64,000 nucleotides of DNA from a virus. Position 1 is the first letter of the stretch. The number at the start of each line of letters is the position of its first letter. A program made the position numbers and the translations under genes. The stretch spans positions 1 to 64,000 of the IMG/VR virus record IMGVR_UViG_3300010413_001187. One strand, 5' to 3'. Below, one piece after another: positions 46,402-61,448 of this stretch. The notes below the pieces were generated by a model that was given only the letters and a program-made list of their open reading frames with translations, was not told where the DNA came from and did not search any database.

Positions 46402-46422
46402 TTTAATTTTTAGGGACTATTT

Positions 46423-47040
46423 ATGAGAATAATTACTAATAAACCTATTGCTTTAGAGTCGGAGGACCATTTGCATCCTGCTGGTGCTCTTGATGACAGG
46501 TGGGTAAATGGCAAAGAGTTTTGGTCTATGTTTAAAGAGGAATTCGGAGGTGGATTTAAAATATTAGACCTTGGTACAGGTGTTGGTCAGATAGTTATTA
46601 GTGGGATTGAAGCTGGGTATGATATATATGGAATTGATGGAACGGATGCCTGTTTAGCTCTGAATACATGGAAGAAGTATCATGGTACTCGACTCTTTTT
46701 AGCAGATGTCACTGAGCCATTTACTATTGTAGACTGGAGTGCAGAGATTATAAAATTCGATTTTATAACTCTCTTTGATTTTCTGGAGCATATTCCAGAA
46801 GAAAAATTAGGTGTATTAATAACTAATATTAAGAAACATTTAAAGAAAGGTGGAACTCTCTTAGGAACTGTAGCACATGATCCAACCCAACGCCAGCATG
46901 TAACTAATTATATTCGTGCTTGGTGGTTGGAGCTATTTGCTAAATATGGATTTGTTGACAAAGGGCACCACGAGATGCTCACAATAGTAAGAAAGGATTC
47001 TATACCAAAGAAACATTTTTGGATGCAATGGGAGGCATAA
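46423..47040 (+). CDS. SAM-dependent methyltransferase, class I (paralogue of upstream gene)
   Basis: 205 residues; 21 bases separate it from its paralogue, one of the larger gaps in the island. Motif I is ILDLGTGVGQ, the adenosine-binding acid is in GIDGTDA, and TLFDFLEHIPEEK with HLKKGGTLLGTV gives the class I motif order. The shared opening pattern P-I-A-L-x-S-x-D-H-L-x-P with the preceding gene, together with the W-W-L-x2-F-A-x-(F/Y)-G-F end region in both, shows a tandem duplication followed by divergence. Likely a second methylation position or sugar. Substrate unknown. Confidence 0.8.
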   Translation: MRIITNKPIALESEDHLHPAGALDDRWVNGKEFWSMFKEEFGGGFKILDLGTGVGQIVISGIEAGYDIYGIDGTDACLALNTWKKYHGTRLFLADVTEPFTIVDWSAEIIKFDFITLFDFLEHIPEEKLGVLITNIKKHLKKGGTLLGTVAHDPTQRQHVTNYIRAWWLELFAKYGFVDKGHHEMLTIVRKDSIPKKHFWMQWEA

Positions 47041-47801
47041 TGGATCTAAAATTTTATAGGAAGGAAATGGAGAAAAAATTCTGGTCTAAATTTAATGAAT
47101 TAGAGTGGATAAGTAACATAGAAGGAACTAATTCTCCCCGAATACAGCATCTAGTTAATCTAGCTGTATCATGCTTGCCGGAAGGAGAGGCATATTTTGA
47201 GGTAGGATGTTTAAATGGATCTTCATTAGACTCGGCAAATAGAGGAAATGAAGATAAAATAAAATATGCTATGGATATAGAGATCCAGGGTCAGATGCAT
47301 AATCTGATCAGAACCATGCCTAACTTGCATTTTATGCATGGAGATTTTTTTACAGCGGATTTAAATACTTTTTTGAAGCATCCTGTTGGTGTATATTATT
47401 ATGATGCAAACCATGATTACAAACCCACTATGGATGCCCTAGAAAAAATAATTCCCTTTCTAGCTGATAAAGCAATAATATTCATGGATGATATACATGG
47501 ATACAGTCGTGTATATAATGCATGGAGAGACTTCATGAGATCTCACTCAGAACAATTTACTATTGTACATGAGTTCTGGACCGAGGACGAGTTTATCTCG
47601 TGCTCATATGGCTATAAGGAAGGCTGGTGGGATGGATTTGCTATAGCTGAATATCAGAAAGAATTTGAAAGACATGATGAAAATATAGAAGGTATAGCTA
47701 TAGCTAGATATCATAGAATAGGAGACTATAGACATAAACCGAAGGTTTTATACCCAGAAGAATTGAAATATATTCATGGCAAAGAGGAGGTTCCTATATA
47801 A
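47040..47801 (+). CDS. SAM-dependent methyltransferase (Methyltransf_24-like)
   Basis: The ATG at 47040 overlaps the previous stop and follows GGAGG by four bases; a start at 47019 is less likely. 253 residues. The core shows AYFEVGCLNGSSLDSA (motif I), YAMDIEI, then GVYYYDANHDYKPTMDAL and IIFMDDIHGY, with the D-x-N/A-H-x-Y metal-site-like pattern of the Methyltransf_24 family. Members methylate sugars and small molecules in surface-polysaccharide and antibiotic clusters. It lies between two other methyltransferases and a GT17-like transferase. Acceptor unknown. Confidence 0.75.
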   Translation: MDLKFYRKEMEKKFWSKFNELEWISNIEGTNSPRIQHLVNLAVSCLPEGEAYFEVGCLNGSSLDSANRGNEDKIKYAMDIEIQGQMHNLIRTMPNLHFMHGDFFTADLNTFLKHPVGVYYYDANHDYKPTMDALEKIIPFLADKAIIFMDDIHGYSRVYNAWRDFMRSHSEQFTIVHEFWTEDEFISCSYGYKEGWWDGFAIAEYQKEFERHDENIEGIAIARYHRIGDYRHKPKVLYPEELKYIHGKEEVPI

Positions 47802-48709
47802 TGAATATCATTTGTACATTCCCATTCTCTGAAGCATATGAGTTGGATATTCTATTACTGAAATTTAATTTGGAAAACAATTGGGTTTCTGAGTGGATAA
47901 TAGCAGAAAATGATTATACTTTCATGGGACAACCTAAAGGATTCAGTTTAAAAAGATTATTGAACGAGGATGAAAGATTTATTCCATTTAGAAATAAAAT
48001 AACAGTTATAGAGAAAAGTATTAATCTGAAATTAAGTGGTAAGGAGGGAGACTTTTCAATAGGGCATAATCAACGTAATTCTGTAAAAGATTACATAGTC
48101 GATAAACATCCTGATGGAACTAGAGTTATTGTGTGTGATATAGATCAGGCTTATGATTTTGAGGGAGGTTTAAGAACCAAGTCAATGCTTGATTTCTTAA
48201 CTCAATATAAGGACCAAGCTATATCCTTTCCTATTATGAAGTTTTGGTACGACATAGATAATTTTGGACACTATCTCAGGCAACATTGTATCAAACCAAT
48301 AGAGCATATAAAAAGAAGAGATGGTATTGTTTACTCTGAATCTCCAGGGGCCAGATTTCATGCTCTAGATTATAACCTTAATCAATTTACTATATTCGAA
48401 TATACTTTTTGTTATTCTAAGAAAGATATAATGAGAAAGCTTGATACCTACGGACATTTTCCTTTCAATGAGTATGATGTAAATATAGCTCTAAAATGTA
48501 ATCATTGGATCAGACGAAGTCAAGTAGGAGACGTATGCCCTCCCCCTAGTAAAGAACATAATCCATGGTTTGAAATGGTGGAACTAAATTATGGTAATGC
48601 ACCACAGTATGTTTTAGAGAATTTTGATTTATTAAAAACAAAGAATGTTGATCTAAATTATAAAGAAAATAGAAAAGAACATTATCCTCAGTATTTTAGG
48701 AGAGACTAA
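47801..48709 (+). CDS. Glycosyltransferase family 17-like, copy 1
   Basis: 302 residues. The opening MNIICTFPFSEAYELDILLL, then WIIAENDYTF and KGF, matches the GT17 layout (beta-1,4-mannosyl-glycoprotein N-acetylglucosaminyltransferase type), in which a D-x-F-x-F/Y-x-E-x-(D/H)-x-L-x-I-R-L-like start is followed by ES/EN-x-T-F. DID at 113-115 would be the DxD metal-nucleotide motif. It shares 64 of its first 120 residues, ungapped by my hand count, with the copy at 51588-52487. GAGGAGG precedes the ATG. It forms a two-gene cassette with the following epimerase, repeated 4 kb downstream. Donor and acceptor unknown. Confidence 0.75.
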   Translation: MNIICTFPFSEAYELDILLLKFNLENNWVSEWIIAENDYTFMGQPKGFSLKRLLNEDERFIPFRNKITVIEKSINLKLSGKEGDFSIGHNQRNSVKDYIVDKHPDGTRVIVCDIDQAYDFEGGLRTKSMLDFLTQYKDQAISFPIMKFWYDIDNFGHYLRQHCIKPIEHIKRRDGIVYSESPGARFHALDYNLNQFTIFEYTFCYSKKDIMRKLDTYGHFPFNEYDVNIALKCNHWIRRSQVGDVCPPPSKEHNPWFEMVELNYGNAPQYVLENFDLLKTKNVDLNYKENRKEHYPQYFRRD

Positions 48710-49710
48710 TGAAAGCAATTGTATTAGGAGGTGCAGGGTATATAGGATCCGTATTGTGTCCGGTTTTATTATATAAGGATTGGGATGTAGTAATCTTTGA
48801 CAGATTTTTCTTTGGCCGACCAACTATGTCTAATGGGATTGAATTAGTGCAAGGTGATATTAGATCAATAAATGCAAATCTCTTTGATGACGTAGAGTTA
48901 GTTATTGATTTAGCCGGTATGTCTAATGATCCTTCTGCAGATTTAGATCCTAAGATAACGAAAGATATTCATTATAGTACTGTAAAGGCTGCTAAGAAAG
49001 CTAAGTCTAAAAGAGTCTCTAGATACATATATGCTTCATCTTGCAGTGTATATGGACATGGGGAAGAAAAGCTACTTAAAGAAACCTCCCCAACTAATCC
49101 AGTATCTCTATATGCTAAGACAAAATTAAAAGCAGAGCAGGATTTATTAGCATTATCAGACAAATCTTTCTGTGTTACAATTTTACGTAATGCCACTGTC
49201 TATGGACTTTCACCACGCATGAGATTTGATTTAGTAGTAAATCTAATGACTCTTACAGCATGGCAAAAAGGACGTATTTATATTATGGGTGGAGGGGCTC
49301 AGTGGAGACCATTGATACATGTCGAAGATGTGGCTAGAGCTTTTATGCTAATTGCTGATAAACCTGTGACTCAGGTACTTAGTCAAATTTTTAATGTAGG
49401 GTTTGATGACCAGAATTATCAGATCATGGATATTGCTAAACTAATAAAGAGAGTTATGCCAACTGTTGAATTGGAAGTAATACCAGAGGATGCTGATAAA
49501 AGAACTTATAATGTTAGTTTTGAAAAATTAAGAAGACTAGGACTAATTGCTAGAAATGATGTTGAAAAAGGGATTCGTGAGATAAAACAAGCTTTGGAGG
49601 AGGGTCTAATCTCTGATACAATAAAAACTAGAACAGTAAAATATTATCAATATCTAATCGAAGCAGATAAACTATTAGATGAAGTAAAATATAAGGGGAA
49701 ATTATTCTAA
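48709..49710 (+). CDS. NAD(P)-dependent sugar epimerase/dehydratase family (SDR), copy 1
   Basis: 333 residues. Rossmann motif VLGGAGYIGSV at the N terminus, a DLAG strand, then YASSCSVYG and the catalytic Y-x3-K in SLYAKTK, followed by LRNATVYG and WRPLIHVEDVARAF. This is an extended SDR acting on nucleotide sugars (epimerase or reductase). The serine-rich SSCSVYG replaces the TDEVYG of 4,6-dehydratases, so dehydratase activity is not supported. The C terminus has an unusual R-T-V-K-Y-Y-Q-Y helix shared with its paralogue at 52497-53516. Linked to a GT17-like gene upstream and a sugar aminotransferase downstream. Confidence 0.85.
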   Translation: MKAIVLGGAGYIGSVLCPVLLYKDWDVVIFDRFFFGRPTMSNGIELVQGDIRSINANLFDDVELVIDLAGMSNDPSADLDPKITKDIHYSTVKAAKKAKSKRVSRYIYASSCSVYGHGEEKLLKETSPTNPVSLYAKTKLKAEQDLLALSDKSFCVTILRNATVYGLSPRMRFDLVVNLMTLTAWQKGRIYIMGGGAQWRPLIHVEDVARAFMLIADKPVTQVLSQIFNVGFDDQNYQIMDIAKLIKRVMPTVELEVIPEDADKRTYNVSFEKLRRLGLIARNDVEKGIREIKQALEEGLISDTIKTRTVKYYQYLIEADKLLDEVKYKGKLF

Positions 49711-50861
49711 TGCAAGTTCCATTTTATAGACACAATGTTGGGGAAAAAGAAATAGAGGCTGTTAATGATGTACTACGATCAGTCTTTCTAACAACGGGCG
49801 AAGTAACAAAAGAGTTTGAAGAAAAGTTTGCTAGATATCTTCGAGTAGATTATGTTATAGGTGTATCAAGTTGTACTGAAGCTATGTTTTTACTTCTAAA
49901 AGCCCATGATATAGGTGAGGGAGATTTTGTAATAACAACTCCACTTAGTTTTATTGCAACAGCTAATGCAATAATCCACACGGGAGCCATTCCAAAATTT
50001 GTCGATGTTGATTACCGTACAGGCAATATGGATCTTCGTCAAGTTGGATATGAGATAGATCGTTATAGGGGAGATAAGGATTCTCAGGGTTATGCAGCTG
50101 TCATGCCGGTACATCTATATGGCCATATGGTTGATATGTATAGACTTGAACAGATAGCTGCTAGACATGGTTTAATTGTTATAGAAGATGCCGCGCATTC
50201 TATTGAGGCTACGGATGAAAATGGGCACGGACCAGCCTGTTTTAGTGTTGGAGCTTGTTTTAGTTTTTATGCAACAAAGAATATAACATGCGGAGAGGGC
50301 GGGGCAATAGCAACTAATTATTATAGTTTAGACCCACAACTAAGACAAATGCGCCTTCACGGTATGACTAAGGGCGCAGCGGACAGGTATAATAAAAAAT
50401 ATACTCATTATGATATGTTAACAATGGGCTATAAATCCAATATGACAAATATTCAAGCTGCTATGCTTTTAAATCAATTAGATCATATAGAGGAAAGATT
50501 GAAACTACGTGAATCAATATGTAAAAAATATGAAGAGGCATTCAAGCCAATAGATGGGATAGATTTCCCTAAAGTTTTGCCTGATTATAGAAGCGCTAGG
50601 CACCTATTCACCATTTGGGTAGACCCACACAGACGCGATACAATATTGCATAGATTACAAGATGCAGGAATTGGAGTATCTGTTCATTTTAGACCTATTC
50701 ATTTAATGGAATATTATAAAGATCGATTCGGGTATAGAAGGGGAGACTTTCCTGTGGCAGAGCGTATTGGCGATTCAACTATTACTCTCCCATTGTATCC
50801 TACTCTAACTGATATTGAAGTAGAATATGTAATTGAACAGACAATTAAGGCAGTAAAATGA
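49710..50861 (+). CDS. Sugar aminotransferase, DegT/DnrJ/EryC1/StrS family
   Basis: 383 residues, typical length. The PLP lysine is Lys190 in SFYATKNITCGEGG; Asp160 and His163 sit in IEDAAHSIEA; the first PLP-phosphate contact region is SSCTEAMFLLL; and PLSFIATANAIIHTGA and VMPVHLYGH complete the family signature. It converts a nucleotide-linked 3- or 4-keto sugar to the amino sugar using glutamate. An acetyltransferase downstream (53522-54220) could acylate the product. The keto substrate would need a dehydratase that I do not see in the window. The ATG overlaps the previous stop. Confidence 0.88.
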   Translation: MQVPFYRHNVGEKEIEAVNDVLRSVFLTTGEVTKEFEEKFARYLRVDYVIGVSSCTEAMFLLLKAHDIGEGDFVITTPLSFIATANAIIHTGAIPKFVDVDYRTGNMDLRQVGYEIDRYRGDKDSQGYAAVMPVHLYGHMVDMYRLEQIAARHGLIVIEDAAHSIEATDENGHGPACFSVGACFSFYATKNITCGEGGAIATNYYSLDPQLRQMRLHGMTKGAADRYNKKYTHYDMLTMGYKSNMTNIQAAMLLNQLDHIEERLKLRESICKKYEEAFKPIDGIDFPKVLPDYRSARHLFTIWVDPHRRDTILHRLQDAGIGVSVHFRPIHLMEYYKDRFGYRRGDFPVAERIGDSTITLPLYPTLTDIEVEYVIEQTIKAVK

Positions 50862-51601
50862 CAATAGTTATACCCATCATAACCATACCACGTAGTGGAA
50901 CACATTTCACGAATGAAATTATTCGACAATATAGTTTGCTTAAGAATCAACGATTTATTAAATTCTTTTCATCTTATGCTGGTGGCATATCAGAATCTTT
51001 TTGTCAACGGGGGCTAGAAGATATAAAAGGCGAGATAAATGAATATATAGATGATTCTGAATATTTTACTTTTCTAGGCCATTGGTCATATGATGAATCT
51101 TTATATGAATTTTTTAGACAATTTAAACCAATCTTTGTTTACAGGAATCCTTTAGATGTTGCAGTATCATATCTTGAAGGAGCATATAGTCTTAAACTTG
51201 TAGATCCTGTAGCTGGTTTATTAAAACTACATGAGCACAAAATCTCAGCTTATTATAAATTTTTGAGAGGCATCCCGCATATAGATCATCCATGGGCTCG
51301 TGGGTTCAGACAGATATTTGAAGATAGATTGGCTTGGTTAGATAAAGAACTTCTTATTATAAGATATGAAGACCTTCTGCTTAATCCTGATACAATAGCT
51401 AAAAAATTATCTAGATATTTGGGCCTTGAACTTGAAGGTACTATAATTGCTATAAAGAATGCTACTCATAATCCTGATAGTATTACACTAAGGAACGGCG
51501 AAATAGGGGATTGGAAATCTTGTATGCCGCCTGAAATGCAAGAGATATATATTAAAGAGATAGGAGATATTATTGAGGAGTTGGGATATGAATATAATTG
51601 A
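50858..51601 (+). CDS. PAPS-dependent sulfotransferase (Sulfotransfer_1-like)
   Basis: 247 residues, ATGA overlap with the aminotransferase gene. The N-terminal phosphosulfate-binding loop IPRSGTHFTNE (Pro11-His16) matches PKSGTTW-type loops that bind the 5'-phosphosulfate of PAPS. IFVYRNPLDVAVSYLEG provides Arg96 and Ser104 for the 3'-phosphate. IIRYEDLLLNP and KKLSRYLGLEL are the conserved C-terminal family segments. A sulfate group would be placed on a hydroxyl or amine of a sugar or small molecule. An APS kinase gene 3.5 kb downstream can supply PAPS. Acceptor unknown; Trp/Lys usual in the loop are Arg and Phe here. Confidence 0.85.
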   Translation: MTIVIPIITIPRSGTHFTNEIIRQYSLLKNQRFIKFFSSYAGGISESFCQRGLEDIKGEINEYIDDSEYFTFLGHWSYDESLYEFFRQFKPIFVYRNPLDVAVSYLEGAYSLKLVDPVAGLLKLHEHKISAYYKFLRGIPHIDHPWARGFRQIFEDRLAWLDKELLIIRYEDLLLNPDTIAKKLSRYLGLELEGTIIAIKNATHNPDSITLRNGEIGDWKSCMPPEMQEIYIKEIGDIIEELGYEYN

Positions 51602-52487
51602 TACATTTCCTTATTCTGAGCCTCATGAGCTAGATATATTATTGATTAAATTTCACCTAGAAGACGCTGGTGTTAATAAATGGATTATATGTGAGAATGA
51701 TTATACTTTTAGAAATCAATATAAAGGTTTTACTTTGATAAGTAGTTTAGATACTGATTCTAGATTTGATAAATTTAGAGATAAGATAATTGTGATAGAA
51801 AAATCGTACTCATCCACTGTCAATGATTTATCGGATGATTTTAAGATAGGAAACAAACAAAGAAAATTTGGACAAGATTATATTGATAATAATTTTGATG
51901 ATGATACATGGGTAATAATATCTGATGTGGATGAAAGTTTCGATTTTAATGATCAGAGAAGTGCTAATCGTATTTATGATGTTCTTGAAAGAGATAGGGA
52001 TCAGTCGCTTTATTATTTTTCTAGACGTAGATATTGGTATGATTTTAATAATTATGCTTTTATCTTATATCACTTTCCTATTATGTCTTTAAGTAAAGCT
52101 AGAGGTAATTTGCTTAATCATTCTCATAAGAAACTATATCCATACAACTTAGACACACCTGTAGGTTTTGAGTATTCATTCTGTTTTAGTTTAGAACACA
52201 TAATCAGGAAACTAGATACTTATGGTCATATTGGTTATACAAGAGAGGATGTTGAATTAGCCTTGAAGTTGAATTGTTGGATGCTGAAATCTTACAAGAA
52301 AGAAAGGTTACGAAGCCCTCAATATTATATAGATAATAATAGCTTGCAATGTTGGTTTGAAACAATAGAATTAACTGACAATAATTCCCCGGCCTACGTA
52401 AGAGAGAATTTGGAATGGTTAAAGACTAATGTAGTGGATAAGAATTATATTAATAATAGAAAGGTAGAGTACCCAGAATATTTTTAG
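51588..52487 (+). CDS. Glycosyltransferase family 17-like, copy 2
   Basis: I choose the ATG at 51588, seven bases after GAGGAG, over a TTG at 51573 because it restores the MNII-x-TFP(F/Y)SE opening of its paralogue. 299 residues. WIICENDYTF, DVD at 113-115 and LDTYGHIGYTREDVELALKL correspond to copy 1 position for position. Together with the next gene it repeats the GT17-epimerase pair found at 47801-49710. It overlaps the sulfotransferase by 14 bases. Predicted cytoplasmic glycosyl transfer; donor and acceptor unknown. Confidence 0.75.
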   Translation: MNIIDTFPYSEPHELDILLIKFHLEDAGVNKWIICENDYTFRNQYKGFTLISSLDTDSRFDKFRDKIIVIEKSYSSTVNDLSDDFKIGNKQRKFGQDYIDNNFDDDTWVIISDVDESFDFNDQRSANRIYDVLERDRDQSLYYFSRRRYWYDFNNYAFILYHFPIMSLSKARGNLLNHSHKKLYPYNLDTPVGFEYSFCFSLEHIIRKLDTYGHIGYTREDVELALKLNCWMLKSYKKERLRSPQYYIDNNSLQCWFETIELTDNNSPAYVRENLEWLKTNVVDKNYINNRKVEYPEYF

Positions 52488-52496
52488 GGAGTTATT

Positions 52497-53516
52497 ATGA
52501 AAATTTTGGTTTTAGGAGGGGCTGGTTATATTGGGGTGCCTCTAATTAAACGGCTTCTCGATGAAGGTGATATAGTTATATTAAAAGATAGATTCTTATA
52601 TGGGCGCGATAGTCTATTATGCTTAAAAGATTATGCTAATTTGTATGTAGAAAAAACTGATGTGAGAGATGTGCATCATTCTTGGTTTAATAAAGTAGAT
52701 GCAGTAGTTGATCTGGCTTCTCTTACTGGGGATCCAGCTTCTAATTTGGTACCTGAGGCTACTAAAGATTTTCATTTGGCTACGGGAAATGTACTACAAA
52801 TGTCTAAAAAGATGGGTATATCCAGATATGTTTATGCCTCTTCATGTAGTGTATATGGCGCAGCAAACTTGGATATAGTTAATGAAACTTCTCCTGTTAA
52901 TCCTGTTTCGCTGTATGCCAGGACTAAACTAGAAGCTGAGAAATTAGTTATGGGACAATCCACAGATGAATTGGGAGTAGTTTGTTTACGTAATAGTACT
53001 ATATATGGGCTCGCACCACGTATGCGCTTTGATCTGGTAGTGAATATCATGGCTCTTAATGCTTGGCAATATGGAAGAGTCGATGTACATGGTGGTGGAA
53101 CACAATGGAGGCCATTTATTCACGTAGAGGACACCGCTAGAGCATTTTTGCTCGCGACTAAAGCTCCTCATGCGGTTGTTAAAGATAAGATATTTAATGT
53201 GGGTGATAACGAGCATAATTATCGCATTATTGATATAGCTAATATAATAAAAAGTATGAGACCCAGTACCGAAATCATTATCCACAGGGACACAGAGGAC
53301 CATAGAACGTATAATGTTAAGTTTGATCTAATAGAACAGGAGTTAGGCTTTAAAGCAATATTGGGAATTCAAGATGGGGTCTCAGAGATTTGGAATGCTT
53401 TGGATAATGGACTGGATTATAATGATATTAGAACTAGTAACGTTAAGTATCTAGAGCATCTTTTACAATTGGAATCTTTTATAGATAAACTAAAATATAA
53501 AGGCAGAATTTTATAA
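52497..53516 (+). CDS. NAD(P)-dependent sugar epimerase/dehydratase family (SDR), copy 2
   Basis: 339 residues, AGGGAG before the ATG. VLGGAGYIGVPL, YASSCSVYG, SLYARTK (Y-x3-K), LRNSTIYG and WRPFIHVEDTARAFLL reproduce the first copy at 48709-49710 almost motif for motif, including the C-terminal T-S-N-V-K-Y helix and K-Y-K-G-R-I-L end. Duplicates that remain intact imply two different nucleotide-sugar substrates or a selected dosage effect. As in copy 1, SSCSVYG argues against 4,6-dehydratase activity. Confidence 0.85.
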   Translation: MKILVLGGAGYIGVPLIKRLLDEGDIVILKDRFLYGRDSLLCLKDYANLYVEKTDVRDVHHSWFNKVDAVVDLASLTGDPASNLVPEATKDFHLATGNVLQMSKKMGISRYVYASSCSVYGAANLDIVNETSPVNPVSLYARTKLEAEKLVMGQSTDELGVVCLRNSTIYGLAPRMRFDLVVNIMALNAWQYGRVDVHGGGTQWRPFIHVEDTARAFLLATKAPHAVVKDKIFNVGDNEHNYRIIDIANIIKSMRPSTEIIIHRDTEDHRTYNVKFDLIEQELGFKAILGIQDGVSEIWNALDNGLDYNDIRTSNVKYLEHLLQLESFIDKLKYKGRIL

Positions 53517-53521
53517 GTAAT

Positions 53522-54220
53522 ATGGTTGATAAAATATTTAAAAAAGACGAATGGCTAACTAATATATTAGAGTACGATGTTTATAATATTGATTATGATA
53601 GCATTAAACATTATAAAAAGGAATTAGTGCTACCCTATTCTGCTTTATATTGTATTAAAATCCCTAATAATGATGTAATTACTACAATCACATTAATTAA
53701 TTCTGGCTTTGAATACATATGCAATAATATAGTTTTTGAATTAGTGGAGCATTCAATCGTTCAGAATAATACAGGGATTAATATATGTCCTTACTCTGCT
53801 AAAATGCAGTCTGATATCTTATGGACTGCTGGAAAAAGTTTTTCTTTTAGTCGATTTCATAAGGATCAAAAAATACCAGAGTATAAAGCTAATAAGATAT
53901 ATCAAGAATGGATAAAAAATCATATTGAAGGAAAGAGAGGGGATGGGTTATTGGTAGCAGAAAAAGACGGAATCACAGTAGGTTTCTTGGCTACAATATC
54001 AACTGAAAACTATGTTTCTATTGATTTGATATGTGTTAATAGTGATTACCAAAAACTAGGAGTAGCGTCATCATTGGTAAGTTTTTTTATTGAAACTGTT
54101 TATGGCAAAAAGATAAGAGTAGAAACGCAATCAAGCAATATACCTGCTATAAAATTATATGAAAAATATAACTTTAAGATAAAAGAAACTTTTAATGTTT
54201 TTCATTTTCATAAATTTTAA
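53522..54220 (+). CDS. GNAT N-acetyltransferase, WecD-like
   Basis: 232 residues, near the 224 of WecD-type (dTDP-4-amino-4,6-dideoxygalactose) acetyltransferases. The N-terminal half has the partially degenerate first GNAT-like lobe typical of that group. The C-terminal lobe has ISTENYVSIDLICVNSDY, acetyl-CoA motif A in YQKLGVASSLVSFFIE (Q-x2-G-x-A), then AIKLYEKYNF. It would acetylate the amino group made by the DegT aminotransferase at 49710-50861. A weak ribosome site precedes the ATG. The chemistry is probable; the sugar is unknown. Confidence 0.75.
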   Translation: MVDKIFKKDEWLTNILEYDVYNIDYDSIKHYKKELVLPYSALYCIKIPNNDVITTITLINSGFEYICNNIVFELVEHSIVQNNTGINICPYSAKMQSDILWTAGKSFSFSRFHKDQKIPEYKANKIYQEWIKNHIEGKRGDGLLVAEKDGITVGFLATISTENYVSIDLICVNSDYQKLGVASSLVSFFIETVYGKKIRVETQSSNIPAIKLYEKYNFKIKETFNVFHFHKF

Positions 54221-54241
54221 TAAATGTGTAGGAGACAAGAC

Positions 54242-54985
54242 ATGAAAGATAAGATAAATTCATTGTTGGGCCAAGATATGATTATACTTAAGCATTCAGA
54301 TAATTCTATTGTTGGTGAGTTAAACCGAAGATCACCATTAGAGGAATGTCCGACTATGTTAGAATTACTTAATTTAATAAAAGACTTTCCAGGTGTAGGA
54401 GAGTATTATGAGGCACATGTACTATTCGTCTTGGCTTGTTATAATATAGTAGCATTGACTGGATCCAAGACCATAGTAGAAGTTGGCACCTTACATGGTT
54501 TATCTTCTAGTGCCTTTATGCGGGCTTTAGGAGACAGCGGGCATCTTATAAGTTTTGATCCCAATATGAGCGAAATAGTTTGGGATTGGATGCCATCAAA
54601 TTATGAGGATTTATGGACCAGATACACTATGACTGGTCAAGCTGGCTATAATGCAGTAAAGGATAGATTAGATGAAGAATATATAGACTTATTATTTATT
54701 GATGCTGCACATGATTACAATGATACACAACAATTGTTGAATGGTTATTGGCTTAATAAGATCCGCCCTGGTGGTTATATAGCATTAGATGATTGCACCC
54801 CTCAGTTTCAAGCTGAAGTAAACTATGATCAAATACCAGAACATCTTTATGAACGAGGGAATCTTAATTATGGAGTATTAAGAGCATTACTAGAATTTAC
54901 AAAAAGAAATAATGATCGTATAGAGTATGCTTTCATAATTAATACTGTACGTTCTACTGGCTTTGGTGTAATTAAATTACGGTAA
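54242..54985 (+). CDS. SAM-dependent methyltransferase (Methyltransf_24-like)
   Basis: Start at the ATG six bases after GGAGA (54231-54235); an in-frame ATG at 54224 would lack a site. 247 residues. TIVEVGTLHGLSSSAFM is motif I, GHLISFDPN the ribose-binding acid, and YIDLLFIDAAHDYNDTQQLL with RPGGYIALDDCTP the metal-site region of this family. Related in kind to the gene at 47040-47801. A sugar methylation role is inferred from the island. The interval to the next confident gene (54986-55113) holds only a possible 36-residue reading frame. Confidence 0.75.
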   Translation: MKDKINSLLGQDMIILKHSDNSIVGELNRRSPLEECPTMLELLNLIKDFPGVGEYYEAHVLFVLACYNIVALTGSKTIVEVGTLHGLSSSAFMRALGDSGHLISFDPNMSEIVWDWMPSNYEDLWTRYTMTGQAGYNAVKDRLDEEYIDLLFIDAAHDYNDTQQLLNGYWLNKIRPGGYIALDDCTPQFQAEVNYDQIPEHLYERGNLNYGVLRALLEFTKRNNDRIEYAFIINTVRSTGFGVIKLR

Positions 54986-54989
54986 TACT

Positions 54990-55100
54990 ATGCAGAGATT
55001 AAATCAACCTATTGTATACACTAGACGATTCTATTCTTACAGTCCTTTTTACCATAGTGAATATTTTTTAAATGTACGATATGAAGAGCTACTTTATTAG
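54990..55100 (+). CDS. Possible 36-residue ORF
   Basis: ATG at 54990, four bases after the methyltransferase stop, reads 36 residues (MQRLNQPIVYTRRFYSYSPF and on) to TAG at 55098. The product is Tyr/Arg-rich and has no recognisable motif. The ribosome binding site is poor (only GGT upstream). In its favour: it fills the only long gap in this part of a very dense operon and its stop lies just before the APS kinase start. It may equally be a non-coding leader. Confidence 0.3.
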   Translation: MQRLNQPIVYTRRFYSYSPFYHSEYFLNVRYEELLY

Positions 55101-55113
55101 AGGTATGTTCATA

Positions 55114-55647
55114 ATGACAGGTAAGCATGAACAAGTTAAATTATTTGGTAATGTTATTTGGTTATATGGTATGTCTGGTGCCGGTAAGACTACACTAGGC
55201 ACTAGACTCGCAAAAGATTTGAACTATATGTTCATTGATAGTGATTATTTTAGACAGGTGCGATGGATCAAACCTGATTTTACTCCTAAAGGTAGACGTA
55301 AATATCAGAATGAACTAAGAAATGAGGTTGCTAGACTACAATTATCTTTTAGTCCAGGTATAGTAGTAGCTTCAATAACTCCATATACAGATATGAGAGA
55401 AAAGAACAGAAGAGTCTTTGGTAAAGAATATCTTGAAGTACTTCTGAAGTGTGATATTGATACTCTTATTCAAAGAGATCCAAAAGGCTTATATAAGCGG
55501 GCAATGGAAGGAGATTTATTTAATTTCACTGGGCTTACGGACTCATTTGAGGAGGGTGAGCCCCACTTAATAGTGTACACAAATGATGGAGAAGATCTAT
55601 CATATAAAATTTTATTAGAAAATGTGAGGAAATGGTTAAATGTGTAG
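55114..55647 (+). CDS. cysC: Adenylylsulfate (APS) kinase
   Basis: Converts adenosine 5'-phosphosulfate plus ATP to PAPS, the sulfate donor of the sulfotransferases beside it. From the ATG at 55114 (AGAGG ten bases upstream) it has 177 residues with the P-loop GMSGAGKTT at 19-27, DSDYFRQ for the DGD-x2-R motif, a VVASITPYTDMR segment matching the ISPY-x3-R motif, and the diagnostic RDPKGLYKRAMEGDLFNFTG. In-frame ATGs at 55072, 55081 and 55105 would add up to 14 residues. No ATP sulfurylase is in the window, so APS presumably comes from the host. This is one of the firmest calls in the island. Confidence 0.9.
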   Translation: MTGKHEQVKLFGNVIWLYGMSGAGKTTLGTRLAKDLNYMFIDSDYFRQVRWIKPDFTPKGRRKYQNELRNEVARLQLSFSPGIVVASITPYTDMREKNRRVFGKEYLEVLLKCDIDTLIQRDPKGLYKRAMEGDLFNFTGLTDSFEEGEPHLIVYTNDGEDLSYKILLENVRKWLNV

Positions 55648-55804
55648 TAGATGTAATTTTAATCCAAATGTTAGAGAAGATTTACCGCCTGTGCATATGC
55701 CTAATGGGGATCTAATATATAAGATATTAAAAGAAAAATCAAAACAAATTATGGACGAATGGGATAGACAAGATATGATTGAAAGAGAGAAGTATGTCGA
55801 TTAA
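55640..55804 (+). CDS. Small CxxC protein (54 aa)
   Basis: A 54-residue frame starting at ATG 55640, eight bases after a GAGGAA site and overlapping the APS kinase stop by 8 bases, ending at TAA 55804. It opens MCSRCNFNPNVREDLPPVHM, with Cys2 and Cys5 forming one C-x2-C and a potential His19, then a charged helix. It overlaps the next sulfotransferase start by 11 bases. The good site and snug fit in a dense operon make it credible. Function unknown; a half zinc-site that dimerises is possible. Confidence 0.55.
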   Translation: MCSRCNFNPNVREDLPPVHMPNGDLIYKILKEKSKQIMDEWDRQDMIEREKYVD

Positions 55805-56531
55805 AGTAATACATTGGAGTGAAGCATCATTAAATGATGTATTACTCTTTCATCATTTACCTAAAACTGCTGGTACTGCTGTGTCATCAGCACTTGAAGG
55901 GCTCTATGGCGCTGAGTATTATAGATGGTTTCATGGGCCAGCTGGGGCTTTAAAGACATTGGTGGATGGACACTCATTAAAAGCTTTGGGCGGGCATTTT
56001 CATTTGAGCCATCCACTTGCTGCGCAGATTGATGCACAAGTAATTATGATTACTCTTATCAGAGACCCAGTTGATCGAGTCATCTCTAATTTTTATTATT
56101 TACGTGCTAATGAAAAACATCATCTTTACGAATTAGCTAATGCATATTCATTGGAGGAAGCACTAAATAAAGGTCTTGCTAAAAAATTACAGATAGATAA
56201 TGAAATAGTCAGAATGCTATCTACAGCGGATCCAAAGAATTCCTTAGGCACAGCTTTTAGAAGTGCAAAAGAAACTATTAATTCGTATACCTTTTTTGGT
56301 CTACAGGAACAGACAAGAATGCTTCAATTGTTAATAAATAGAGTTTTCAACATTGAGCATTTTAAAATACCTGTAATGACAACTTATACAGCTAGGCCCA
56401 AGAAAGAAGAAGTAGATCCCGGCTTGATAGAGTTGATAAAGAAATATAATCAGTATGATGTAGAACTATATGAATATGCAAAAGAAATATATAATAGAAA
56501 ATTGGAAAAAGAATGGAGATTGAAACGTTAA
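55794..56531 (+). CDS. Sulfotransferase, HS2ST-like (Sulfotransfer_2), copy 1
   Basis: Start at ATG 55794 after a GAGAG-rich stretch; a TTG at 55779 is in frame. 245 residues. The PAPS 5'-loop FHHLPKTAGTAVSSAL (PKTAGT at 23-28) and the 3'-phosphate motif ITLIRDPVDRVISNFYYL (Arg90, Ser98) are hallmarks of the family that includes heparan sulfate 2-O-sulfotransferase. Between them lie WFHGPAGAL and GGHFHLSHP, conserved with the next gene. Two genes downstream of APS kinase, it probably uses the PAPS made there. It likely sulfates a sugar hydroxyl; acceptor unknown. Confidence 0.85.
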   Translation: MSIKVIHWSEASLNDVLLFHHLPKTAGTAVSSALEGLYGAEYYRWFHGPAGALKTLVDGHSLKALGGHFHLSHPLAAQIDAQVIMITLIRDPVDRVISNFYYLRANEKHHLYELANAYSLEEALNKGLAKKLQIDNEIVRMLSTADPKNSLGTAFRSAKETINSYTFFGLQEQTRMLQLLINRVFNIEHFKIPVMTTYTARPKKEEVDPGLIELIKKYNQYDVELYEYAKEIYNRKLEKEWRLKR

Positions 56532-57250
56532 CAAATATTATTCCATGGGATAAAGCATCATCAGATGATTTTCTTTTATTCCATCATATACCGAAGACTG
56601 CAGGAACAGCTTTATCGGCTGCCTTGCGCCGGTACTATGGGCCTGAGAACTATCATTGGTTTCACGGTCCTAGTGGTGCTCTGGATGCTATTTATGAGGG
56701 CACTGAATTACGAGCTGTGGGGGGTCATTTCGATTTAAATCATCGTTTATTAGATATGATACAAACTCCAATGATTTTAATCACAATCTTCAGAGAACCC
56801 GTCGAAAGAGTAATTTCATCATATTACTATTTAAAGAATAATGGTAAACATAATTTACATGAGTTAGCTATGAGATTCAGTTTAGAAGATATTTTTGATA
56901 AAAAATGGGCTCGGCGGCTACAAATGGAAAACCAAATGGTCCGCACGGTGTCTAATATAGAGTATAGACGATGGGCTGATCCTGTGTCGGGGGCTAAAGA
57001 AAATATTTTGAAATATACCTTTTTTGGATTACAAGATGATTTAGACACTTTCGAACAGCTATTCAATTCTAAATTTAATACCACAGACCTACAGATACTA
57101 AGATCCAAAAAGAAATATGAAACCCCTAAACCAGATGAACTCGATGCAAGAACTTTAGAATTAATTAAAATGAATAATAAAGATGATATATGTTTGTATG
57201 AATATATACAAGAAGTCTATTTACAGAAAATAAAAGAAGACTGGATATGA
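56513..57250 (+). CDS. Sulfotransferase, HS2ST-like (Sulfotransfer_2), copy 2
   Basis: 245 residues, overlapping copy 1 by 19 bases. PKTAGT at 27-32, ITIFREPVERVISSYYYL (Arg94, Ser102), WFHGPSGAL and VGGHFDLNH align with copy 1 throughout, so it arose by tandem duplication. Both PAPS-binding loops are intact, which suggests activity on a different position or acceptor and not decay. The C terminus of each ends in a charged helix with a Y-x-Y-x2-E pattern. Weak GGAAAAAG upstream of the ATG; translation is probably coupled to copy 1. Confidence 0.85.
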   Translation: MEIETLTNIIPWDKASSDDFLLFHHIPKTAGTALSAALRRYYGPENYHWFHGPSGALDAIYEGTELRAVGGHFDLNHRLLDMIQTPMILITIFREPVERVISSYYYLKNNGKHNLHELAMRFSLEDIFDKKWARRLQMENQMVRTVSNIEYRRWADPVSGAKENILKYTFFGLQDDLDTFEQLFNSKFNTTDLQILRSKKKYETPKPDELDARTLELIKMNNKDDICLYEYIQEVYLQKIKEDWI

Positions 57251-57291: not shown

Positions 57292-57690
57292 ATGAAAAGA
57301 AGAAATTTTTTAGTCGGAGCTTTGATAGGGCTTTCATCAATATTTACAGTAAAGAAATCATCAGCATATAATACTCCAGGTTTATGTTTGGAAAACATTG
57401 TTGGCGAGATAAATAAATATGGATACAAAGTCGATAGTGAACATAGAGACCAGAAACTAGAAGAAATTAGTTTTTGTCAAACACATAAAGAATTTACTGA
57501 AGATATTGTAAGGGTTTGGAAAGTTACTAATATTCATAATAGAGAACCTATGTTTTATGTTCAAAAATTTATTTTTGGCACTAACATGGATGGAAATTTA
57601 TATAATTTGAATACTCAATGTTATCTGACTGATAATTGGAAGAAAGAACTATATACTTTAATCAATATGCAGCCAGAAAGGTTATGTTAA
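57292..57690 (+). CDS. Exported protein with Tat-like signal peptide (132 aa)
   Basis: I start at the ATG at 57292, seven bases after GGAGA; an in-frame ATG at 57247 would bury the signal. The first residues MKRRNFLVGALIGLSS carry a twin-arginine motif (R-R-x-F-L) followed by a hydrophobic core and an S-S-A cleavage-like site near residue 25, the layout of a Tat signal peptide. The mature part (about 107 residues) has three Cys and no family I recognise. Export by the host Tat pathway would place it in the periplasm or outside. Tat substrates fold before export, often around a cofactor. Function unknown; a surface-glycan role is only suggested by location. Confidence 0.6.
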   Translation: MKRRNFLVGALIGLSSIFTVKKSSAYNTPGLCLENIVGEINKYGYKVDSEHRDQKLEEISFCQTHKEFTEDIVRVWKVTNIHNREPMFYVQKFIFGTNMDGNLYNLNTQCYLTDNWKKELYTLINMQPERLC

Positions 57691-58211
57691 TGCCGACTGC
57701 TGAAGCAAGACAAAGTTTAGCAAAATATTGTCAAGGTAATGGAATAGATGTTGGATATGGTGGTATTGCTATAACTCCCAATACAATAAATCTTGATTTG
57801 CCGGAAAAGAAACAACATGGTGGGAATGATCCACAACATTTATTTGGCAATGGCAAAGAATTATATTGGTTCAAGGATGAAGTTCTTGATTATGTTTATT
57901 CATCCCATCTATTAGAGAATTTCTATATACCAGAGATGCATGAGTTTTTAAAGGAATGGTTTCGAGTATTAAAACCAGGAGGCTTAATCATATTATATCT
58001 ACCTGATCAGAAAGTCTATGAAGAACATTGTCGTAAGGCAGGGGCGAATCATAATCCCGCTCACAAGTACAAAGAACTAAGCTTAGAATGGTTTATAGAA
58101 AGTGTAATAAAACCATTGAATAAAGAAATAGAAGTATATAAATTAGACATTATATATAAGAATCCTAACGCTGGTAAATTTTCGTTCGAGTTAGTCTTAA
58201 GAAAAGGTTAA
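57690..58211 (+). CDS. SAM-dependent methyltransferase (Methyltransf_11-like)
   Basis: The ATG shares a base with the previous stop and lies eight bases after AAAGG; an upstream in-frame ATG at 57684 is closer to the site and one at 57636 lies inside the previous gene. 174 residues. GNGIDVGYGG is motif I, NLDL the ribose acid region, VYSSHLLENF the motif IV region, and EWFRVLKPGGLIILYLPD the classic post-II and III region. Shorter than most family members. Target unknown, probably a small molecule or sugar given the setting. Confidence 0.75.
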   Translation: MPTAEARQSLAKYCQGNGIDVGYGGIAITPNTINLDLPEKKQHGGNDPQHLFGNGKELYWFKDEVLDYVYSSHLLENFYIPEMHEFLKEWFRVLKPGGLIILYLPDQKVYEEHCRKAGANHNPAHKYKELSLEWFIESVIKPLNKEIEVYKLDIIYKNPNAGKFSFELVLRKG

Positions 58212-58216
58212 TCACG

Positions 58217-58399
58217 ATGTTACAAAAATTATTGAGAAAGCTATTTTATTGGAAAAGATGTAATAAGTGTGGCAGTATAAATACATATGTGGAATACAGA
58301 CCCATAATAGGCTATCAAGTTGGTAAGCCATACGAATACATAGAGAAAACTTTAATTTGTAGAGACTGTCATGACATTTACCAAAAAGATTTATGGTAA
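58217..58399 (+). CDS. Small zinc-ribbon protein (60 aa)
   Basis: 60 residues with Cys15/Cys18 (RCNKCGS) and Cys48/Cys51 (ICRDCHD), a four-Cys zinc ribbon, behind a basic amphipathic start. AAAAGG lies about nine bases before the ATG. Ribbons this size often bind nucleic acid or act as protein adaptors. It overlaps the ORF start upstream of the next gene but ends before its likely ATG. Function unknown; zinc binding is a fair inference from the Cys spacing. Confidence 0.65.
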   Translation: MLQKLLRKLFYWKRCNKCGSINTYVEYRPIIGYQVGKPYEYIEKTLICRDCHDIYQKDLW

Positions 58400-58410
58400 A
58401 GGGGATAGAA

Positions 58411-58710
58411 ATGGGAGAGAAGAAAAGTTTATTAGAATTGAATGACGAAGTAAATGAGGGAATAGAGATTGCCAAAGAAGCAGCGGGCGAAGATGAAGAA
58501 TTATTAGAGACAATATATACATTAGAGCGTGCTTGGAATAAGTTACTAGGACAAATTATTATTATGTCTGTTGGTTTAACAGCTATGAAATATAGAGAAG
58601 ATGAGCAAATAAGAGAATTGTTACGAATATATAAAAGGAAAATTGGTGGCTTAACTCTGTTTAGTGATTGGATGAAAGATGATCCTAACAAAAAGCCTCC
58701 AAAAAATTAG
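58411..58710 (+). CDS. Hypothetical helical protein (99 aa)
   Basis: I use the ATG at 58411, seven bases after AAGGGG; one at 58393 would overlap the preceding gene. The 99 residues are strongly helical and acidic in the first half (SLLELNDEVNEGIEIAKEAA), with a short hydrophobic stretch (LLGQIIIMSVGLTAM) that is probably a buried helix and not a membrane span, and a Pro/Lys-rich end. I recognise no family. It sits between the zinc ribbon and an epimerase. Confidence 0.5.
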   Translation: MGEKKSLLELNDEVNEGIEIAKEAAGEDEELLETIYTLERAWNKLLGQIIIMSVGLTAMKYREDEQIRELLRIYKRKIGGLTLFSDWMKDDPNKKPPKN

Positions 58711-58719
58711 GAGCGGCAA

Positions 58720-59778
58720 ATGAAAATATTGATTACTGGTGGGGCTGGGTATATAGGCTCAGTATTAGTTAAGAAATTATTAGAGTGGAAACCTATATCT
58801 CTTGATGCTTTGGTTAATACTGGTAATGGTATTAGATGGTCTAGCCCTATAGAAAAAATAACAGTAGTAGATAATCTTATTCGTAAACAAAATGTCTTGG
58901 GCGAGTTCGTAACTGATTCAAGATTCGAATTCATCAAAACAAATATAGATTCCTTTTTCACTTATCAAGGTGATATGCACCCGTTCCATAAAGGCGATGA
59001 GATAGACGTTACTGAGTTAGCTTGTTTTTATGATGTCGTCATTCCTCTAGCTGGAATTGTAGGTGCTCCTAGATGTCAAGAAGAGCAAGAACTCAGTTGG
59101 AAATATAATAGGATATGGATTTTTGAGTTAATAAAAGAATTGGAAGAACATGCACCTGTGCCTCCTAAAGTTATATTCCCATGTACTAATTCAGGTTATG
59201 GATCAAGACCAGACGGCGCAATGATTACTGAAGAGGACCCATTAAGACCTGTTTCTGCTTATGGTAGATCAAAGGTAGCAGCAGAAAAAGATATATTAAG
59301 CTATGGGGGAATTAGTTTGAGGCTGGCCACAGTTATGGGCTGGTCTCCATGTATGCGTCTGGATCTATTAGTTAATGACTTTGTATGGCAAGCTGTTAAA
59401 CGAAGAAACATAGTTCTCTTTGAAAAACATTTCAAGAGAAATTATATTCATGTAGAAGATGTCGCGCAAGCTTTTATTCTAGCTATAGAAAAATATTATC
59501 AGATGGGTGGACAATCTTTCAATGTTGGTCTATCTAGTGCGAACTTATCTAAAGAAGAGTTGTCTAAAAAGATAGCTGAACATATAGAGTTGCATATAAT
59601 TGATGCCCCTCTGATGGAGGATCCAGATAAGAGGGATTACATAGTTAGTAATGAGAAGATAGAAGCATTGGGGTTTAAACCTAGATGGGATATTGATTCA
59701 ACTATTGAACAACTTATTAAATTTTATCAAACTGTTGGATTAGATTCAGCAAATATATTTTATGAGAATTGGAAGTAA
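58720..59778 (+). CDS. NAD(P)-dependent epimerase/dehydratase (extended SDR)
   Basis: 352 residues; AGGAG precedes the ATG. ILITGGAGYIGSVLV is the cofactor motif; LAGIVGAPRCQEE, PCTNSGYGS and SAYGRSK (Y-x3-K) the active-site region; and RNYIHVEDVAQAFILA the family end segment. A large insertion after the first strand (about residues 25-75) distinguishes it from the two paired epimerases upstream. It probably acts on a nucleotide sugar as epimerase or reductase. It lacks the TDEVYG dehydratase motif. Neighbours are small Cys proteins and a GDP-fucose-synthase-like gene. Confidence 0.82.
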   Translation: MKILITGGAGYIGSVLVKKLLEWKPISLDALVNTGNGIRWSSPIEKITVVDNLIRKQNVLGEFVTDSRFEFIKTNIDSFFTYQGDMHPFHKGDEIDVTELACFYDVVIPLAGIVGAPRCQEEQELSWKYNRIWIFELIKELEEHAPVPPKVIFPCTNSGYGSRPDGAMITEEDPLRPVSAYGRSKVAAEKDILSYGGISLRLATVMGWSPCMRLDLLVNDFVWQAVKRRNIVLFEKHFKRNYIHVEDVAQAFILAIEKYYQMGGQSFNVGLSSANLSKEELSKKIAEHIELHIIDAPLMEDPDKRDYIVSNEKIEALGFKPRWDIDSTIEQLIKFYQTVGLDSANIFYENWK

Positions 59779-59781
59779 ATT

Positions 59782-60030
59782 ATGAAGATTAAATCTTGTT
59801 TATGTGTTCACGCAGAACGTATTTATGTGGAATACCTTGGAGCCACCTTATTAGACATGGAACATGTTACGTGTTATTGTAAAGGTGAGCCACGTAAGGT
59901 AAATGTAAAACATTGTGATAAATGTGAAATAGAAATAGAGGATGAAACAGATGACGACTTTCCACGATGGGCGAAAAGTAAGATTAAAGCCTCTTACAGA
60001 AAACACTTCATTGAGAATAGTGGAGAATAA
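59782..60030 (+). CDS. Small Cys-rich protein (82 aa)
   Basis: 82 residues with Cys at 6, 8, 31, 33, 45 and 48; the last two form HCDKCE, a C-x2-C preceded by His. The C-terminal part is charged and helical. The pattern C-x-C...C-x-C...C-x2-C suggests one zinc site with extra ligands or a metal cluster. It starts three bases after the epimerase stop. No family recognised. The following gene overlaps it in another frame by about 80 bases. Confidence 0.55.
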   Translation: MKIKSCLCVHAERIYVEYLGATLLDMEHVTCYCKGEPRKVNVKHCDKCEIEIEDETDDDFPRWAKSKIKASYRKHFIENSGE

Positions 60031-60220
60031 ATCTCTACTTTGTAAAACATGTATATTAGGTGAAGAGATTAGAAGTAATACTGTATTATGCAATCTAAAT
60101 CCAGAACAAAGAGAGGTAAAAGCCACAGGGTTTTGTGGACAAGGCGTGTGGGTAATTGATGGCGAAATAATGGATTTCAAAGAGGCATGGAGTCATATTA
60201 ACAAGGAGGATAAATGTTAG
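59951..60220 (+). CDS. Small four-Cys protein (89 aa)
   Basis: The ATG at 59951 lies nine bases after AGAGG (59937-59941), better placed than the ATG at 59942, though later GTG/TTG starts (60020, 60011) cannot be excluded. From 59951 it is 89 residues with Cys31-x2-Cys34, Cys47 and Cys62 (TGFCGQGVWV), a zinc-finger-like set that falls wholly after the overlap with the upstream gene. That suggests the shorter forms may be the true product. Function unknown. Confidence 0.5.
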   Translation: MTTFHDGRKVRLKPLTENTSLRIVENKSLLCKTCILGEEIRSNTVLCNLNPEQREVKATGFCGQGVWVIDGEIMDFKEAWSHINKEDKC

Positions 60221-61206: not shown

Positions 61207-61448
61207 ACTATATATTAGATAGATTCAAAACTAATAAACACATGAGAATAAGTTTAACACAGGACATTACTGGTCTTGCCAACGATGTACATCCAGAATA
61301 TTTATTAGCTTTAATTAGAAGTGCTTGGAAGTCCTGGGAAGAAAAGAAAAAATCTAACATAGCAAAAACTATTGCTGGGCCAATGTATTATGACTCTTTT
61401 TTAGAGATTATGGAGAATGATGTTAGCGACGAAGTTAAAGGCGCATAA
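61167..61448 (+). CDS. Hypothetical protein (93 aa)
   Basis: 93 residues, overlapping the fucose-synthase-like gene by 40 bases, but with a strong GGGGAGG (61152-61158) eight bases before the ATG, which supports it. The sequence is mostly helical, with ITGLANDVHPEYLLALIRSAWKSW in the middle in parts (ITGLANDVHPEYLL, IRSAWKSW). No motif recognised. It overlaps the next gene by 32 bases, continuing the coupled pattern. Confidence 0.5.
   Translation: MVREADNDQEATLDYILDRFKTNKHMRISLTQDITGLANDVHPEYLLALIRSAWKSWEEKKKSNIAKTIAGPMYYDSFLEIMENDVSDEVKGA

Follow-up and report, generated by a model that had tools for sequence, protein, structure and literature searches.

An APS kinase and three PAPS-type sulfotransferases in a phage glycan-gene island: a putative sulfation module

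The window analysed here, 64,000 nucleotides of a 66,130-base linear IMG/VR record from a virus of microbes, probably encodes a glycan-sulfation module in which an APS kinase supplies PAPS and three sulfotransferases consume it. The four proteins belong to the expected families with their PAPS-site motifs kept, their genes lie together in a glycan island, and the linkage of kinase and sulfotransferase genes recurs in other viral contigs. Together with the absence of sulfotransferases from random viral contigs, these observations support the original prediction of a set that both makes the sulfate donor and transfers sulfate.

All four sulfation genes were found on the plus strand where they had been predicted, enclosed by a glycan-gene island of about 39.9–62.9 kb, in line with the proposed interleaving with sugar genes. 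The island adjoins replication genes. The label of a huge phage is not shown, as the record has only 66,130 bases and is linear and probably a fragment. The island is organized as follows:

39946–47801, +, first half of the glycan island, mostly overlapping ORFs
47801–48709, +, GT17-like glycosyltransferase (PF04724, 1.9e-5, just under the Pfam cut-off)
48709–49710, +, NAD-dependent sugar epimerase/dehydratase (PF01370, E = 1.1e-37)
49710–50861, +, DegT/PseC-like sugar aminotransferase (PF01041, E = 3.6e-108)
50858–51601, +, PAPS-dependent sulfotransferase of the Sulfotransfer_1 (PF00685) type, 247 aa
51573–52487, +, GT17-like glycosyltransferase related to the 47801 copy (PF04724, 1.5e-6)
52497–53516, +, NAD-dependent sugar epimerase/dehydratase (PF01370, 3e-37)
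53522–54220, +, GNAT acetyltransferase, WecD-like (amino-sugar N-acetyltransferase; PF00583, 2.8e-11)
54224–54985, +, methyltransferase (PF13578, 1.6e-14)
55114–55647, +, APS kinase (PF01583), divergent, 177 aa
55794–56531, +, Sulfotransfer_2 (PF03567) enzyme 1, HS6ST/HS2ST-like, 245 aa
56513–57250, +, Sulfotransfer_2 (PF03567) enzyme 2, tandem paralogue (Pfam and alignment to 55794)
57636–62875, +, sugar genes farther downstream: methyltransferase at 57636; epimerases at 58720, 60214, and 61904

The first half of the island (39946–47801) contains two GT4-like ORFs, one weak GT2-like and one other glycosyltransferase-like ORF, an RfaE2-like nucleotidyltransferase (45143), and three methyltransferases. 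Further along, the ORF of the 50858 sulfotransferase shares 4 bases with the aminotransferase ORF that precedes it, and the two tandem transferase ORFs overlap by 19 bases and encode proteins that align with 46% identity. Alternative upstream starts exist for the kinase (ATG at 55072, giving 191 aa) and for the first tandem transferase (TTG at 55779, giving 250 aa). The acetyltransferase reaches 68 bits against NF008212, under the cut-off, and the aminotransferase scores 318.9 bits against TIGR03588 (PseC), under its cut-off of 423.5. The latter is 53% identical to a protein in a Desulfobacterales MAG, which by sequence similarity may offer a weak hint of the host and no more; the 7.6-kb MAG contig carrying this best relative has no sulfation genes. 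Elsewhere in the window, the viral-contig matches of RecA are only 23% identical, and a 2166-aa ORF (22831–29331) had no match in phage records.

The 55114 gene product was confirmed as an APS kinase by PF01583 (E = 1.9e-22; 80.4 bits against a gathering cut-off of 21.1), and its best PDB match is the archaeal APS kinase 2yvu (2.3e-23), with shikimate kinases at 1e-5. It is identical to 59 other viral APS kinases at every column invariant among them in the alignment, and retains the P-loop GMSGAGKTT, D-S-D..R, R61, P90, R95, RDPKGLY, and FTG. A chance P-loop kinase was considered and ruled out: the APS kinase score far exceeds that for shikimate kinase, and all residues invariant in APS kinases are present. 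The protein nevertheless falls under the NCBI APS-kinase equivalog cut-off (TIGR00455, 92.1 versus 138.7 bits), which linked kinases of other viral contigs pass (for example 266.7 bits at locus L015). At residue 43, Ser replaces the near-invariant Gly of D-G-D, and in the ENIRR helix Y64 stands for Asn (0.86-conserved) and E67 for Arg (0.93-conserved). Asn is likewise missing at the position of Y64 in the archaeal APS kinases with solved structures, and 55114 has an Asn two residues on. All key loops had been described as looking intact; this holds for the P-loop, for PRSGTH/PKTAGT, and for R-x7-S, but slightly overstates the case for the kinase, given the substitutions at positions 43, 64, and 67. 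Because the kinase is divergent and under the TIGR00455 cut-off, its substrate is only inferred, and the synthesis of PAPS from APS and ATP is an inference without activity data.

The assignment of the transferases to PAPS-dependent families was also borne out. The 50858 protein matches PF00685 (E = 1e-16; 61.6 bits against a cut-off of 22), with a 5'-PSB motif PRSGTH and a 3'-PB motif R96-x7-S104, and its profile (A4) matches solved sulfotransferases down to 1.5e-17. The tandem proteins 55794 and 56513 match PF03567 (E = 2.1e-11 and 8.2e-9; 44.8 and 36.4 bits against a cut-off of 22) and carry PKTAGTA and R90-x7-S98; K24, R90, and S98 are invariant across 11 aligned viral Sulfotransfer_2 sequences. 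AlphaFold models were of low confidence (mean pLDDT 58 and 52). The best Foldseek matches of the 50858 model are SULTs bound to PAPS or PAP (E = 8e-5), and the top matches of the 55794 model (pLDDT 58) are HS6ST and HS2ST, most of them PAP-bound (E = 6e-5 to 8e-4). Sequence profiles and, within the limits of these models, Foldseek thus agree in grouping the transferases with PAPS enzymes.

The tandem pair had been called HS2ST-like. The PAPS-sulfotransferase family is correct, but the pair is nearer to heparan sulfate 6-O- than to 2-O-sulfotransferase: matches to the HS6ST3 structure 5t03 reach E = 2.9e-6 with a single sequence and 1.2e-9 with a profile, versus 0.05 and 1.6e-7 for the heparan 2-O-sulfotransferase. 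The fold and PAPS-site motifs are common to the pair and the heparan sulfate 6-O-/2-O-sulfotransferases; however, the phage proteins are only about 20% identical to these enzymes and shorter, and there is no evidence of a glycosaminoglycan acceptor.

Strict single-protein scans found no close relative of the window transferases in the phage record collection or viral contigs, searches of single window proteins against viral contigs gave no matches, and the tandem-pair alignment had no match in viral contigs or in one genome per prokaryote species. The exact gene set is therefore a singleton in those collections. Although neither the set nor close transferase relatives were found there, the pairing of kinase and transferase recurs in other viral contigs.

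Relatives of the 55114 kinase are encoded on 124 viral contigs. Half of the kinase-bearing viral records (25 of 50) contain a sulfotransferase over the Pfam cut-off, PF00685 in 10 and PF03567 in 17, whereas each family was found in 0 of 50 random viral contigs. These control contigs, 1.49 Mb in total, are shorter than the kinase-bearing records, and we therefore place weight on the comparison within records. Sulfotransferase density is 22.4 per Mb up to 10 kb from the kinase versus 2.9 per Mb in the remainder of those records, a 7.8-fold ratio (P about 4e-9; 1.4e-8 with near-identical records merged). Counting any sulfotransferase match, 26 records qualify, and in 20 of them the match lies within 10 kb of the kinase versus 7.3 expected (P about 2e-8); among records over 60 kb, 14 of 20 have a sulfotransferase near the kinase versus 4.2 expected (P about 9e-7). 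By locus, 29 of 80 have a sulfotransferase within 10 kb; when the kinases are clustered at 95% identity, these loci fall into 21 of the 56 clusters. All but one of the 29 nearby sulfotransferases share the strand of the kinase, and the two ORFs overlap or abut at loci L025, L063, L073, L084, L086, and L026. Neighboring genes encode epimerases, glycosyltransferases, and methyltransferases. Locus L065 combines a sulfotransferase with CysD, a CysNC fusion, and a TauE-type transporter, and at L061 CysD-CysNC lies amid phage tail/baseplate-type genes. The linkage could stem in part from both genes occupying common cargo islands. The APS kinase of the 462-kb uncultured phage LR756500 has no recognizable glycan or sulfotransferase neighbors among the ORFs inspected, so some phage cysC lies outside such a module.

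In the mechanism we propose, the APS kinase would phosphorylate host-made APS to PAPS and maintain the donor pool through infection. One SULT/Sulfotransfer_1-type and two HS6ST-like enzymes would then transfer sulfate to hydroxyls or amines of the sugars that the surrounding phage gene products are predicted to build, aminate, acetylate, methylate, and transfer. APS as the substrate, a limiting supply of PAPS, and a glycan as the acceptor are all inferred; the sulfated product is inferred to be most likely a decoration of phage surface proteins or of the host envelope. As predicted, no ATP sulfurylase is present (PF01747 is absent from the whole record), and the whole record, which may be a fragment, has no CysD/CysH-type protein (PF01507).

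The divergence of 55114 (92 bits versus 138.7; N to Y64, R to E67) and its place among sugar genes would also suit a kinase acting on another nucleotide conjugate, leaving the island without a PAPS source. A precedent is Cj1415, an APS-kinase homologue that acts on CDP-phosphoramidate in capsule modification. Cj1415-1418 of Campylobacter jejuni produce CDP-phosphoramidate 3'-phosphate (PMC11800397). We consider this unlikely for 55114: no glutamine-kinase-like, CDP-glutamine-hydrolase-like, or MeOPN partner (Cj1416-1418) was found among the island ORFs scanned, the nucleotidyltransferase at 45143 resembles RfaE2, the island contains three PAPS-type sulfotransferases, the closest solved relatives are archaeal APS kinases, and the kinase–transferase linkage recurs in viral contigs. 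Sulfation of hypermodified phage DNA bases, rather than of protein or envelope glycans, seems very unlikely. Modification of phage bases by glycosyltransferases and sulfotransferases is mentioned in PMC10829341 with reference to Iyer et al. 2013, and the adjoining replication genes would fit, but the genes around the module, for epimerases, DegT, GNAT, and an RfaE2-like protein, are of nucleotide-sugar and amino-sugar types. No TET/JBP base-hydroxylating or dNMP-hydroxymethylase match was found among the proteins scanned, although this is weak evidence because the record is a fragment.

Phage cysC has been placed in assimilatory sulfate reduction (PMC10914622, PMC9529941), which would make 55114 an auxiliary metabolic gene feeding PAPS to host CysH and cysteine synthesis during infection. 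For this module, we find such a role highly improbable. Just 3 of the 50 records with the kinase have a PF01507 match over its cut-off, the two inspected being CysD beside a CysNC fusion and not CysH, and the family is missing from the window's own record; sulfotransferases, by comparison, occur in half of the kinase-bearing records, often adjacent to the kinase. The linkage thus favors PAPS supply for sulfation over the published assimilation reading.

In viral ecology, phage cysC is currently counted as a sulfur-cycling gene, while the sulfotransferases of phages are described as unexplained. Their linkage unites these two orphans in one testable function, sulfation, and this reading shifts their meaning for sulfur-cycle estimates. 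We hold it an even question whether much of the catalogued phage cysC serves not sulfur assimilation but the supply of donor to a recurrent sulfation system. Such a system, which in some phages would include complete sulfate activation by CysD-CysNC, would decorate glycans on the surface of phage or host and may alter receptor recognition, superinfection, or defence recognition. If confirmed, phages would both supply the donor for sulfate esters and attach them, a modification of host surface or virion that we did not find described for phages in the literature searched.

APS kinase genes on phages are not new in themselves. A viral cysC clade has been reported (PMC9529941), and a count of 62 cysC versus 167 cysH in phages (PMC10914622), with significantly larger genomes for cysC phages, tempers the contrast drawn with cysH, since it documents phage cysC in numbers. 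Unlike the present reading, these reports assign cysC to assimilatory sulfate reduction, and "sulfotransferase" is absent from the main text of PMC10914622. Conversely, Sulfotransfer_3 proteins are described in OM43 phages and Synechococcus phage S-SRM01 with a function that 'remains unclear'; in the accessible part of that source (PMC10580990), no accompanying donor-making gene is reported. Among bacteria, cluster VI of C. jejuni HS:19 comprises cysD, cysN, a permease, cysC, a sulphotransferase, and a glycosyltransferase (PMC8743553). It resembles the window in having cysC beside a sulphotransferase and a glycosyltransferase, in its case near a capsule locus, and surface-polysaccharide sulfation has been proposed for it (PMC8743553); it differs in lying on a bacterial chromosome and including a sulfurylase and a transporter, and its function is likewise only proposed. 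In the synthesis of the rhizobial Nod factor, NodPQ makes PAPS and NodH transfers the sulfate (PMC6192434). There, as in the window, a PAPS-making activity is co-encoded with a glycan-decorating PAPS sulfotransferase, and viral locus L065 follows the same logic with CysD, CysNC, and a sulfotransferase. NodPQ and NodH are bacterial symbiosis genes, whereas the window belongs to a phage record, has three transferases of two families, and provides an APS kinase alone without the sulfurylase that viral loci L065 and L061 do have. By this analogy, the window set can be regarded as a new, phage variant of NodPQ/NodH-like modules.

The source record is a linear IMG/VR virus record of 66,130 bases, of which the window covers positions 1–64000. 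The window's replication genes are of phage type (sliding clamp, UvsX/RecA-like recombinase, DnaB-like helicase, primase, and SSB). Ahead of them lie very long ORFs that match few known families or none. Gene-family matches delineate a glycan-gene island, inside which sit all four genes reported for sulfation:

~39.9 to 62.9 kb, all on one strand: glycan-gene island, by gene-family matches
50858–51601: Sulfotransfer_1 protein, by Pfam
55114–55647: APS kinase, PF01583, 80.4 bits
55794–56531 and 56513–57250: Sulfotransfer_2 pair, by Pfam, 46% identical to each other

Overlapping or abutting ORFs form the majority within the first two thirds of the island, whose glycosyltransferases are GT4-, GT2-, and GT17-like. 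Alongside these stand five ORFs of the epimerase family, several methyltransferases, and single genes for a PseC/DegT-type aminotransferase, a WecD-like acetyltransferase, and an RfaE2-like nucleotidyltransferase. Three of the epimerase-family ORFs, 0.4–0.7 kb apart with small ORFs in the gaps, occupy positions 58720–62875, and one small ORF of this stretch (61417–61914) matches DUF5662. The very long ORFs of the window span 2516–9916 (2466 aa), 12656–22846 (3396 aa), and 22831–29331 (2166 aa). Scans of two of the three gave weak family matches or none, and ORF 2516–9916 has an F5/8 type C match below cut-off. It is possible that these three proteins are sulfation acceptors or receptor-binding proteins.

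Pfam bears out each of the four genes in the original prediction, which had proposed one APS kinase and three PAPS-type sulfotransferases. The protein encoded at 55114 is an APS kinase by family, with its substrate inferred from sequence alone. Among solved structures its best match is the archaeal APS kinase 2yvu (E = 2.3e-23), with shikimate kinases appearing as later matches only at 1e-5; the TIGR00455 equivalog cut-off is not reached. The key loops had been described as intact throughout the set. This holds for the transferases at 50858, 55794, and 56513, whose PAPS motifs (5′ loop and R-x7-S) are unbroken, but overstates the case slightly for the kinase. An alignment against 59 viral APS kinases, all distinct, shows the kinase retaining every residue that is invariant among them, with S, Y, and E substituted at positions that are mostly G43, N64, and R67 in those proteins.

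The tandem transferases at 55794 and 56513 had been called HS2ST-like, and the family relationship stands; profile searches, however, rank heparan 6-O-sulfotransferase first and 2-O-sulfotransferase after it. The group of the 50858 protein is related by profile search to tyrosyl-protein and cytosolic sulfotransferases. AlphaFold models of the transferases are weak (pLDDT 58 and 52), but Foldseek searches with them still rank HS6ST/HS2ST, along with SULTs carrying bound PAP or PAPS, at the top of the PDB matches.

A viral APS kinase profile searched against IMG/VR contigs identified 124 with a relative, and the best 80 of these 124 were kept. A sulfotransferase above a Pfam cut-off occurs in 25 of 50 records drawn from the kinase-relative contigs, and neither sulfotransferase family was found in 50 random viral contigs (1.49 Mb). 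The position test was run within the same kinase-bearing records, comparing sequence ≤10 kb from the kinase with sequence elsewhere: 21 sulfotransferase genes fall in 0.94 Mb near the kinase versus 15 in the remaining 5.19 Mb, corresponding to densities of 22.4 versus 2.9 per Mb (P = 4e-9; P = 1.4e-8 after merging near-identical records). A sulfotransferase lies ≤10 kb from the kinase in 20 of 26 match-bearing records, against 7.3 expected. The nearest transferase shares the strand of the kinase in 28 of 29 cases among the best 80 of 124 loci, and in several loci from different kinase clusters the two ORFs overlap or abut. Epimerases, glycosyltransferases, methyltransferases, UDP-sugar dehydrogenases, DegT, and NeuB recur around the linked pairs, and a large-terminase match is present in 14 of 30 records tested. 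This wider kinase–sulfotransferase pattern across viral contigs is of greater interest than the set in the window.

PF01507, the fold shared by CysH and CysD, is rare in kinase-bearing records (3 of 50 over cut-off), and in both cases read the protein is CysD beside a CysNC fusion:

L065: sulfotransferase, CysD (above equivalog cut-off), CysNC (above cut-off), and TauE-type transporter
L061, 7737–10567: CysD and CysNC fusion genes of a phage contig, flanked on one side by tail/baseplate-type genes and on the other by a clamp-loader-like gene

Distant relatives of four epimerase/aminotransferase genes of the window are present in L065; the L061 record lacks a sulfotransferase family match.

Several viral APS kinases have unusual architectures. 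A C-terminal HAD-like domain is fused to the kinases of L015 (9923–10870), L016, L033, L072, and L026, an assignment based on a weak PF00702 match in L015 and an IDFDGVIH motif. An HxGH nucleotidyltransferase domain is fused N-terminally in L011 (9581–10549) and C-terminally in L019 (10001–10909). The kinases of L063, L081, L086, L020, and L026 bear an N-terminal hydrophobic segment, which suggests membrane anchoring, and L067, L082, and L083 have long ORFs of 555–633 aa containing an APS kinase domain that are likely CysNC fusions.

The four-gene set is real, and PAPS making and glycan sulfation are supported as the best reading of the observed families, motifs, island, and linkage, in keeping with the proposal that donor supply and use are encoded together. 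APS would most likely be supplied by host ATP sulfurylase, since none was found in the source record (66,130 bases), as anticipated. The phage kinase would convert APS, its inferred substrate, to PAPS, and the three phage transferases would pass sulfate to glycans that the phage builds or modifies, an inferred acceptor; PAPS limitation is likewise inferred.

Phage cysC has already been reported and assigned to assimilatory sulfate reduction (PMC10914622; PMC9529941), with 62 cysC and 167 cysH counted in phages (PMC10914622). Phage sulfotransferases have also been reported, their function being given as 'unclear' (PMC10580990). No paper joining phage cysC to sulfotransferases was found in the searched literature, which was mostly without subscription papers. 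Cj1415 is an APS-kinase homologue. It functions in CDP-phosphoramidate synthesis (PMC11800397). Bacterial precedent for combining sulfate activation with a sulfotransferase is provided by NodPQ/NodH (PMC6192434) and, as a second case, by the C. jejuni HS:19 cluster (PMC8743553).
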